A stretch of 64,000 bases of DNA from Artemia franciscana (lineage: Eukaryota > Arthropoda > Branchiopoda > Anostraca > Artemiidae): contig NC_088866.1 in the NCBI RefSeq assembly GCF_032884065.1, positions 58,177,866-58,241,865 on the forward strand, in the 5' to 3' direction. The position numbers were made by a program, and so were the translations under genes. A model generated the notes under the pieces. That model had not been told where the DNA came from. It searched no databases and worked only from the letters and a program-made list of their open reading frames with translations. Shown here piece after piece: positions 7,281 through 55,712 of this stretch (the stretch's first letter is position 1; the number at the start of each line of letters is the position of its first letter).

Positions 7281-7331
7281 CTAGACTTTTAACCAGACGT
7301 TGTAATTCCATTTCTGGGATTTCTGGAAGAC
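7281..7331 (-). CDS. Candidate terminal exon (exon 8) of the split minus-strand gene
   Basis: On the minus strand a pyrimidine-rich stretch ending TTATATTTCAG gives a good acceptor just before 7331. In the phase delivered by the exon at 8590-8758 it reads VFQKSQKWNYNVWLKV and a TAG stop. The alternative frame (LPEIPEMELQRLVKSLE, stop TGA at 7276) also looks protein-like and would need a different upstream phase. The existence of an exon is moderately supported; the frame and its membership of the gene are uncertain. Confidence 0.3.
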   Translation of the reverse strand, partial: VFQKSQKWNYNVWLKV

Positions 7332-7857
7332 CTGAAATATAAGAGGTGCAATTTAAACACTAATCAGCCAAACCTGGGGAAAGGGTCGGAAACTAAGTTT
7401 AATTTGGTCTCTTACTTTTTCAAGTCCTTCATAAGGAGGATCCTTGAAGAGGAATTCAACCTCACCCCCCTTTTTGTGACCTAGTACTATATCGAATAGA
7501 CATTTACTAGCGGCGGAGTAAAGGCAACAATTGTTTACTATAATTGTTACTATTTGTAAGGGAGGTTACTGATCTGAAATACTCACTAACCTTCAGGTAC
7601 CTGTCGCGTAGTATCACTTAATTGTTTTCAGATTATTGATTTGCTAGAGATTATGGACTCTTACTTATTACAAAGTAAGATACAATGTTGTGGGTACCAG
7701 ACATAAGGACAACTGGTAAATAGTTTTGTAGCCAGCCTTTTTCGTAATAACCATACCGATCTTTTATACAACTATACCAGCCTATACAAAGTTAAGCTGC
7801 TTCACTTACTATAATACCTTGTCAAAGAATAATTATTTTGCATCATCGTGCATATGA

Positions 7858-7963
7858 ATATATATATATATATATATATATATATATATATATATATATA
7901 TATATATATATATATATATATATATATATATATATATATATATATATATATATATATATATAT
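7858..7963. repeat. (TA)n microsatellite
   Basis: About 106 bp of uninterrupted TA dinucleotide. The apparent tyrosine/isoleucine reading frame across it is an artefact. Confidence 0.97.
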
Positions 7964-8589
7964 TACAGCTACTATGGGCTAGAGTTTGTTCCTTATTATA
8001 ACTGCCACCATAATTTACAATTCGAAAGATAGGCGTTTATAAATGTTTCATTTACTTATTACGTCATATGTGGCTACAGCCTATGATTATGGTGTCATGC
8101 ACCAAGCATGTACATAAAGTTTTTTTGTAAAAATATTTCATTTTTTTTTTTTATTACAAAAGGCAATAGATGTGGCAATTTCATTTTAAATGAGCCATTA
8201 AAAAGTTCTCTTTGATGTTCTAGTGCCCCACTAGCTGATGAAGAAGAACGGGACAAAAAAGATGGCGATGAAGAATATTGCAGTTCAAGCAAATTTTCTT
8301 GTTTTTCAAGCCAGTAGATTTTCCACGTCAGTCAAGGCAATTAACGGTAAGTTTCCTATATAGCGGTTTCGGACAAGGCAGTTCTAATTGAATACTTTTT
8401 GTTTTGATCTGATACTTTTTTTTAAGAGTTGTGGGCTATTGTATTTCTTAGTATTGGACGTGATCATCCCTTACTAGGTTTCTAGCTACCGCTGCAACCC
8501 AGATGACTATTTAAGATTTGACTACACTATTTTTTAAGTATTTTTTTACTCAAATAAATAAAATTAACCACTAAGATATTAAACCTTAC
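7964..8589. other. Putative intron 7 sequence
   Basis: AT-rich DNA between candidate exons 7 and 8. On the plus strand a segment at 8224-8346 has a TTCTAG acceptor-like start and an AACG/GTAAGTTT donor-like end, but a stop at 8314. I did not accept it as an exon. Nothing else is seen. Confidence 0.35.
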
Positions 8590-8758
8590 TTCAGAATCTA
8601 TAATATGAGTATTTAGCATAGGCTTTTGCTGGTCCAGAGCAACTGAAGATATGAGCTTCGTCTTCTGAGAATCCAGTTCTCCGCAGGTCTCTCTTGGAAC
8701 ACCAACCTCGATTGGGTAAGAACCTTCCGTGCAAGAAAGCTGGGAATCACTCTTTTCT
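8590..8758 (-). CDS. Candidate exon 7 of the split minus-strand gene
   Basis: The acceptor is CTTTCAG ending at 8759; the donor is GAA/GTAAGG after 8590. In the phase left by the exon at 8842-8929 it is open for 56 codons (EKSDSQLSCTEGSYPIEV ... HIIDSE) and ends in phase 0. It is richer in GC and purine-first codons than the flanks. A second frame (LPNRGWCSKRDL ... YSYYRF, stop TGA) is also open with an alternative acceptor at 8740. The short 83-bp intron to the next exon and the matching phase favour the first reading. I do not recognise the protein segment. Confidence 0.4.
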
Positions 8759-8841
8759 CTGAAAGATTTTATAACGCCCTACTCGATGATCCCACTTTGT
8801 AAATCTTACAATTAAACCCTTCAGTGAATATGAAAGCTTAC

Positions 8842-8929
8842 CGTACGCTGGTACTTCGGAAGGCTGTTGGCATCGCAACCCAGGGTGTTGCAGGCACCAC
8901 CAGCGCAGAAATATAACCTTGTCGAAAAC
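8842..8929 (-). CDS. Candidate exon 6 of the split minus-strand gene
   Basis: It ends at a strong donor, ACG/GTAAGC. With the acceptor GATGTTCCAG at 8930-8932 it starts in phase 1, as the exon at 12459-12614 requires, and reads GFRQGYISALVVPATPWV ... FRSTSV, ending in phase 2. The frame is open further upstream to about 9045, so the exon could be longer with another acceptor, for example at CACAAAG. Phase agreement on both sides is the main support. The function is unknown. Confidence 0.35.
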
Positions 8930-9240
8930 CTGGAACATCTTTATGTAGCTGGAGCCGAGTGACCGTTTTATGACTTTTATCTGATGATGTACTGGTACTA
9001 TATGCTTTGTGCCGTGGCAAGCCAAGGATATGGTCACGTTTGAAATAGTTTTAGTTTCTAACGTCCATTGTCTTTATAAACAAGCAATAATTGTTTATTT
9101 TCTCTCGAAAGCGACCCCAAATTTTTTCGCGAAAATTGATATCTTGGGATATTCTCGCATAAAAAACGATCTAGATAGGTCAGAAACCTGAAAAAATTCG
9201 TTAAGAGCCTTAATTGTGGAAAAATGAGCTTCAATAATCA
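8930..9240. other. Putative intron 5, 3' part
   Basis: AT-rich sequence with no repeat that I recognise, apart from the open upstream extension of candidate exon 6. Confidence 0.3.
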
Positions 9241-54315: not shown

Positions 54316-54464
54316 GTTAGTTTGTTTTAATTAATATTTGTTTTTAAAAAGTTAGATACTGCTAGGGTACATTAATTTTAAGAAAGCGTTTTAATCGCTT
54401 GTAACTCGAAATGCCAACCGTGCTTTCTCATCCGAATAACCATTTTAAGTTGTTTTTAAAAAGT

Positions 54465-54558
54465 AGCGTCAATGAAGCAGCTCAAGGTAAAACGTTATTT
54501 CAAGATCTCTTACTTGCCGTCTGGGTCAATTGTCGCAAATCCAACGTCCCATCCATAT
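54465..54558 (-). pseudogene. Duplicated end of exon 1 plus donor (copy 2, decayed)
   Basis: Homologous to 55497-55597: it reads DGTLDLRQLTQT with one codon deleted. The donor is altered to GCAAGT, and the former intron part, AACGTTTTACCTTGAGCTGC, is kept. The SINE at 54637 sits just upstream. Confidence 0.65.
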
Positions 54559-54626
54559 TTTGTTTTAGTTTATATTCCCTTTAGAAAACGTAAGTATGGT
54601 CCTGATTCATTAACTTTAAAAAGGAC

Positions 54627-54636
54627 CCTGAAAGTC
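54627..54636 (+). repeat. SINE target-site duplication, left
   Basis: CCTGAAAGTC, identical to 54956-54965. Confidence 0.85.
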
Positions 54637-54955
54637 TTCTTCCTTCCTAGCCAAGTGGATTGGTTCGCTGGATTTATGAACCTTTGTCCGAGAGGACGAG
54701 GATTCGAATCCCAGTGTACCCAATTATTTGTTTTGGGACGGGAGTCAGTGGCGTGAGTCTGTAAGCTCAGCCAGAGTCGACCCAGCTCTAAATGGGTACC
54801 TGGAGAAACCTGGGGAAGGTAAACAGGAAGGTTGTGCAAAAGCACTGGATGACTGGCCCTCATCCCCCCCCATTACACTTCCTGGGTGAAGGGTCTTCAG
54901 ACGGAGATACAGCACCACCGGTTCGGACCTTAATGGCCTAGTGCCGCATCCTTTA
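54637..54955 (+). mobile_element. tRNA-derived SINE, 319 bp, flanked by a 10-bp target duplication
   Basis: The head has an RNA polymerase III A box TAGCCAAGTGG (54648-54658), a perfect match to the consensus, and a B box GGATTCGAATCC (54700-54711). Both have tRNA-like spacing, as in a Ser/Leu-type head. A 240-bp tRNA-unrelated body follows (GTCGACCCAGCTCTAAATGG, TACCTGGAGAAACCTGGGGA). The end is non-poly(A), CCGCATCCTTTA. Perfect CCTGAAAGTC repeats on both sides fix the boundaries and show retroposition, presumably driven by a LINE partner. The acceptor stem does not pair, so it is not a working tRNA gene. Confidence 0.85.
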
Positions 54956-54965
54956 CCTGAAAGTC
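54956..54965 (+). repeat. SINE target-site duplication, right
   Basis: CCTGAAAGTC, identical to 54627-54636. Confidence 0.85.
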
Positions 54966-55550
54966 CGTACTTTTTCCTCTGAATAACTTATCAAAGTAAA
55001 CTAGCTTCAATTTCAACAGGGACTGGCTTTAGGGGAATGTGTTCCCCCAGAGGTTCGAAGATTGAATAATTTGAGGGGCGAGAAAGACGGTACTTGTGTA
55101 TTATACCGAAAACACCTAAGAAGCGAAGTTAGGTTAATCTTAATGAAAAATATGCCAAAATATGATGAAAATATAATACTTTAGCAACAAAACTACGGAA
55201 ACTGCAACAAAAGAATTATGTAAAGCAGGTCACCCAGAACGTATTATACTAACTATTTAACCTAACCACCTCTATATATTAAATATTTTATTAAAATATA
55301 CCTGCATCGGAGTTTTTATTAGGGAGATTAAGCTCTATAATTATAACCGATTGCAGGCAGACAAACTGGTTTTACTCAGATCAAACAAAGTAAAATTCTA
55401 GTGTGTGTTCAGGAAAATACACAAATACCAAAAATACTGATGGGGAGCCAAATTGTTGCTGATGCCCCGGAAAAATTAATTCTTTATCCGCCCCCCAGCG
55501 TCAATGAAGCAGCTGAAGGTAAAACGTTATTTACAATATTTTTCATTTAC

Positions 55551-55712
55551 CACTTGTGTTAACTGCCGGAGCAAATCGGACGTTCCATCTATATCCTGTG
55601 GTTCCGGGTATCCATCTACTAATTGCTGACGGTTATTTCTTCCTTCTATCCTTCCCGTTACTAACAACAATAAAACTAACAAACTAATATTTTTCACCAT
55701 TGTGTTAGCCAT
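55551..55712 (-). CDS. Exon 1: signal peptide and N-terminus of the split gene
   Basis: The minus-strand ATG at 55712 (or the fifth codon, also ATG) opens a typical secretion signal: MANTMVKN then ISLLVLLLLVTGRIEG. A short polar stretch with YPEPQ and DGTSDLLRQLTQV follows. The donor GTG/GTAAAT after 55551 leaves 54 codons in phase 0, matching exon 2. Without splicing the frame stops seven codons later (NEKYCK). Just upstream, TTTACATTTAG could be the acceptor of a 5'-UTR intron. Link to exon 2 is by phase, strand and order only, over an 11.5-kb intron. Two partial duplicates of its 3' end lie downstream. Confidence 0.6.

Follow-up and report, generated by a model that had tools for sequence, protein, structure and literature searches.

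The window considered here is a stretch of 64,000 nucleotides from the 1.27-Gb genome of Artemia franciscana (C4:58177866-58241865, C4 being contig NC_088866.1), and it carries a genuine animal gene, divided among widely spaced exons, whose small product is predicted to be secreted and is related to Argos, the giant-lens protein of Drosophila. The gene consists of six coding exons (Table 1) and extends over 48.4 kb from start codon to stop codon, with introns of 11480, 4928, 10884, 15211 and 5127 bases in the order from exon 1 to exon 6 and intron phases of 0, 0, 0, 1 and 1. A stop codon stands in frame 5' of the ATG, and the joined coding sequence of 807 bases, stop included, specifies 268 residues with ten cysteines (residues 97, 103, 117, 119, 127, 156, 165, 190, 192 and 222). 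Five of the exons had been proposed in an earlier interpretation made from the letters alone (hereafter the sequence-only reading), and their placement was right: exons 1 to 5, of 162, 141, 141, 151 and 156 bases, have AG/GT edges (ATG in the case of exon 1) and join in one stop-free frame with the phases it had given (0, 0, 0, 1), the cysteines fall exactly on the residues it had listed, and its intron range of 4.9-15.2 kb agrees with the measured lengths.

The span given in that reading, 7281..55712, starts inside a sixth exon which it had not listed. Exon 6 was chosen among the candidates for a terminal exon; it follows the acceptor ttatatttcag and closes with TGA (7278-7276), has an AATAAA downstream (7051-7046) and shows zero differences in a second genomic copy, described below. 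The precursor begins with a putative signal peptide (residues 1-24, judged by eye) and, after Cys222, exon 5 runs on for 28 basic, cysteine-free residues before the short exon 6. This tail contains the tetrapeptide RQKR (residues 238-241), a putative furin-type site.

Splice signals and cysteine number alone fail to beat chance. Splice sites were scored with generic matrices, and when the thresholds were set at the weakest real internal exons, 43 minus-strand and 65 plus-strand candidates for internal exons passed, as against 29 and 27 in two reversed-sequence controls; the "splice logic" that the sequence-only reading offered as proof therefore does not serve as such. The acceptor of the exon at 12459-12614 is weak (31% of all minus-strand AGs score as high or higher), and a count of ten cysteines is unremarkable among random open chains of the window (mean 7.4, standard deviation 2.8). 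The evidence beyond chance is the periodicity of the coding sequence, its conservation between two copies and its similarity to Argos. Of 3000 random sets none attained the 3-base periodicity of the joined exons, and among 1500 open-frame sets 0.67% did. The practical lesson is that a gene with introns of 5-15 kb can be found from raw sequence, and that splice signals or cysteine number are insufficient as proof.

A sequence matching exon 2 at 99% lies 325 kb away on the same scaffold and belongs to a second copy of the whole gene, with all six exons in the same order and on the same strand, splice sites and frames intact and no insertions or deletions in the exons. The two copies differ at 8 of 807 coding bases, four of these differences being silent and four replacing (F84Y, I133S, I139L, V230I), and at 1287 of 42565 aligned intron bases; the introns also show 326 gap positions, and 4739 of their bases did not align. 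Exons thus differ less than introns (P 2e-4); random blocks contain 24.2 differences on average, and among 20000 random placements 1.3% have as few substitutions and 0.3% have as few substitutions together with no gap. The coding bases are constrained, with a ratio of nonsynonymous to synonymous differences (pN/pS) of 0.29, on 8 differences, and a nonsynonymous rate below the intron rate (P 7e-5). Collinear homology joins the region from about C4:58163781 to 58250634, which includes the window, with C4:58493476-58578321 (loci L003-L012), its left limit not being reached. The second copy is probably the other haplotype: homology ends where a gap of 100 N begins (58250635-58250734), a pattern that suggests an uncollapsed (unpurged) haplotype left in the assembly and not a tandem duplicate. 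A genome-wide protein search gave 11 matches, namely five exons of each of the two copies and one of expectation value (E) 2.54.

The relation to Argos emerges from the cysteine domain (residues 94-222, 129 residues), which was searched by phmmer against 177635 PDB sequences and matched Drosophila Protein giant-lens (Argos, 3c9a_A) at E 0.0048, all nine cysteines within the alignment being in register. The blocks LPxCA, VC, CxCPD, DxHTI and CRC are common to both proteins. The alignment score against fly Argos is 124, the maximum in 3000 shuffles with the cysteines kept in place being 95, and the reversed domain had no match in the PDB to E 10. The sequence-only reading had been reminded of a conserved arthropod secreted family, a hunch borne out by this resemblance to domains 1-2 of Argos. 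The comparison with other arthropods that it had proposed was run in part, and it yielded the match to the fragment of Drosophila Argos held by the PDB, which was the sole other-species sequence compared. When the row of fly Argos was included in a profile for the PDB search, giant-lens was recovered by construction and the other matches had E 0.14 or worse. Domains 1 and 2 could not be detected as an internal duplication (52% and 56% of shuffles reach their score), and the full-length protein had no match in Pfam or NCBIfam to E 10.

A canonical Argos is encoded elsewhere in the same genome. The Pfam family PF11581 (Argos), which as a positive control matches the fly Argos segment at 2.8e-33, gave two matches out of seven candidates in a genome scan, both of them exons on C19 and none on C4; these exons, which hold domains 2 and 3, together with a neighbouring domain-1 exon make up a three-domain protein in which domain 3 occupies its own terminal exon. 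This own Argos is closer to fly Argos than the window protein, which does not have the status of the closest counterpart in the genome. The window domain is 35.9% identical to own Argos, with an alignment score of 107 (shuffle maximum 87). Ten cysteines follow in the same order and with nearly the same spacing, the gaps being 5, 13, 1, 7, 28, 8, 24, 1 and 29 in the window protein and 5, 14, 1, 5, 21, 8, 23, 1 and 30 for the first ten cysteines of own Argos. Both genes have a phase-0 intron between domains 1 and 2 (the Argos boundaries being set by eye), whereas a phase-1 intron inside domain 2 is present in the window gene only. In contrast to Argos (PDB 3c9a, 3cgu; PF11581), the window protein lacks domain 3: it has no cysteine past Cys222, and an acidic linker and a basic tail are present. 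Since a separate three-domain Argos exists in the genome, the window gene is best described as a paralogue of Argos in which domains 1-2 are retained, an assignment supported by these sequence comparisons. The proposal of the sequence-only reading that a split gene encodes a secreted protein with ten cysteines is therefore well supported, and it is refined by the sixth exon, the second copy and the separate canonical Argos.

Table 1. Features of the window (positions in the window unless a contig or locus is named) and the canonical Argos of the same genome; differences are those found in the second genomic copy.
Feature	Position	Strand	Remarks
Exon 1	55551..55712	-	ATG, signal peptide (by eye), start of linker; ends in phase 0; 0 differences
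Exon 2	43930..44070	-	Acidic linker and Cys97; 1 difference (F84Y)
Exon 3	38861..39001	-	Most of domain 1 (Cys103, 117, 119, 127); 4 differences (2 amino-acid changes)
Exon 4	27826..27976	-	Final cysteine of domain 1 (Cys156) and beginning of domain 2 (Cys165, 190, 192); 1 silent difference
Exon 5	12459..12614	-	Remainder of domain 2, with Cys222, then the basic tail; 2 differences, one of which changes an amino acid; weak acceptor score
Exon 6	7276..7331	-	Terminal coding exon, TGA stop; 0 differences
Candidate polyadenylation signal AATAAA	7046..7051	-	Read by eye
Own Argos, canonical (domain-1, -2, -3 exons)	C19:3253635-3253829 (L028), 3258155-3258379 (L027), ~3266305 downwards (L029)	-	Within ~13 kb
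Non-long-terminal-repeat (non-LTR) element	348-3773		897-codon open frame; endonuclease and reverse-transcriptase domains (RVT_1 E 2.8e-33)
Repeat of ~1.75 kb	3905-5641, 18275-19968, 22190-23943, 41268-42968, 44682-46423		Copy at ~22193-23941 missing from the second genomic copy
Perfect AT dinucleotide runs, in introns	7858-7963, 25378-25495		53 and 59 units
mL44 gene exons (neighbour)	L019:83-445, L016:4434-4835		PF22935 E 8.6e-25; PF22892 below its cut-off
DUS3L-like gene exons (neighbour)	L012:2949-3332, L014 near 3949		PF25585 match below its cut-off (E 4.6e-5); second exon recognised by eye

Proteins of this kind form a broader group. A 2025 preprint counts about 1,800 protostome two-finger (2FTX) proteins in 12 clusters, two of which (A and D) are two-domain; it gives their function as unknown and presents the proteins found as undescribed in the literature save for one weakly similar spider protein (Khilji et al., PMC12236594). 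The window protein fits the protostome 2FTX Argos-like proteins and may adopt the two-finger fold: with clusters A and D, compared by their description, it shares a predicted secretory nature, two domains and five disulphide positions in register (PMC12236594). Another two-domain member is the conotoxin Tx33.1, which was compared by its cysteine positions only; both proteins have two domains and no domain 3, and ten of the twelve Tx33.1 cysteines are in register, the difference being an extra first disulphide in Tx33.1. From the positions quoted in the same source, the cysteine gaps of Tx33.1 are 6, 11, 1, 5, 26, 8, 21, 1 and 15. In 200000 trials of each kind, the fraction that came as close to the spacing of Tx33.1 as the window protein does was 3.5e-5 for random placements and 8.5e-5 for shuffled gaps, the corresponding fractions for fly Argos being 0 and 1.75e-4. 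Tx33.1 was not matched in the PDB searches with the window domain or the profile. Conotoxin genes, which are snail venom genes, differ in having intron phases 0, 2, 0 (PMC12236594).

The disulphides that Tx33.1 has in common with Argos domains 1-2 are 15-34, 22-42, 36-69, 78-100 and 102-118 (PMC12236594). Transfer of these published pairs by register gives C97-C117, C103-C127, C119-C156, C165-C190 and C192-C222 as the most likely disulphides of the window protein. The even number of cysteines, which the sequence-only reading had considered suited to disulphides, accordingly fits the five that are common to the published two-finger structure and Argos.

Drosophila Argos acts as a secreted antagonist by binding Spitz (PMC9038189, PMC9928117), and its domains 2 and 3 are described as forming a clamp on this ligand, binding relying on domain 3 (PMC12236594). 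In ants, nurse giant-lens is reported to correlate with larval eps8 (PMC6544314). The window gene probably encodes a secreted two-domain paralogue of Argos of the 2FTX type, devoid of domain 3, which would tune signalling via an extracellular partner. The precursor would comprise a signal peptide, an acidic linker, two tandem homologues of Argos domains 1 and 2 and a basic cysteine-free tail in place of domain 3. Its disulphide-locked fingers would bind a protein outside the cell, the probable partner being a ligand of the growth-factor type or the receptor of such a ligand, and this binding would tune growth-factor-type signalling in a way that differs from the Argos clamp; cleavage at the presumed furin-type site may release the tail. 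One genome thus combines a canonical Argos of three domains with a constrained paralogue that lacks domain 3, and this pair makes it possible to ask directly whether the two-domain form still acts on signalling by the epidermal growth factor (EGF) receptor (EGFR) or has a different partner.

Several results weigh against this interpretation. With the full-length protein no PDB match was obtained to E 10, the giant-lens match being seen only with the domain alone, and PF11581 did not match the window protein to E 10. The identity to fly Argos is 26% in a global alignment and 35.6% (37/104) in a local one, as compared with 54.5% (55/101) for own Argos, and the only other PDB match of the domain, HAUS augmin at E 1.2, looks like chance. 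The genome-wide protein search, run to E 10, missed own Argos. As regards constraint, the exon deficit is weaker when the flanks within 300 bases are the yardstick (P 0.016), pN compared with pS by itself does not reach significance (P 0.077), and the silent-site rate is no different from the intron rate (P 0.82).

Among the other explanations, the one that survives best is a true Argos-type ligand sink, in which domains 1-2 would sequester an EGF ligand despite the missing domain 3 and lower EGFR signalling. It draws on the homology to Argos domains 1-2 and is nevertheless unlikely: the clamp is made of domains 2 and 3 and binding relies on domain 3 (PMC12236594), while PF11581 is without a match both on C4 and in the window protein. 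For EGF-ligand trapping exactly as Argos does it, the absence of domain 3 makes the same verdict apply.

Considerably less probable is that the gene model lacks a part, domain 3 being encoded by an exon that lies farther off or is used alternatively, so that the protein has three domains. Domain 3 does sit on a separate terminal exon in own Argos, and likewise in endogenous cone-snail genes (PMC12236594). However, the 28 cysteine-free residues after Cys222 and the stop of exon 6 are both conserved in the second copy, PF11581 matches C19 only, and a scan for C.CP.{2,9}C, which covered 104 kb around the gene and the 200 kb in which its copy lies, returned four matches with no further domain-3-like exon among them (two are exon 3 itself, one lies in a transposon region with stops and one in a DUS3L-like exon).

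A venom or salivary role, such as two-finger domains have acquired in cone snails and centipedes, has a marginally smaller chance. There are 2FTX conotoxins with two domains, and centipede venoms contain Argos-like proteins with three (PMC12236594), but in Artemia there is one locus and its second copy, which account for ten of the eleven genome-wide matches, and no expanded family, and the coding bases are constrained, not accelerated. More speculative still would be a clamp-less paralogue acting as an opposing regulator, which would mask the surface that domains 1 and 2 contact on the ligand, or the one on Argos, but would not trap the ligand, and would shield EGF ligands from Argos and raise EGFR signalling where it is secreted. 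That splice-like signals form a chain here by chance, or that the gene is a pseudogene, would suit splice signals and a cysteine number that are not beyond chance by themselves, but is highly improbable given the periodicity, the conservation in the second copy and the similarity to Argos.

Several further searches accompanied the analysis. Rfam found nothing in the window, viral contigs and prokaryote genome contigs gave pattern matches with no relative by tblastn, and peptide strings sought in 5.39 million papers gave none, the one match being in an unrelated COX-2 paper. Centipede scoloptoxins, considered as possible relatives, received no link from the literature search by itself. One centipede protein is tied to the Argos fold (PMC12236594).

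The introns had been described in the sequence-only reading as filled with transposons, which holds in part only: they contain reverse-transcriptase fragments and several copies of a repeat of ~1.75 kb, as well as perfect AT runs (Table 1). Outside the gene, the non-LTR element at the start of the window looks like a recent insertion on one copy only, because this stretch is missing from the second copy. The neighbouring genes encode the mitochondrial ribosomal protein mL44 and a DUS3L-like protein.

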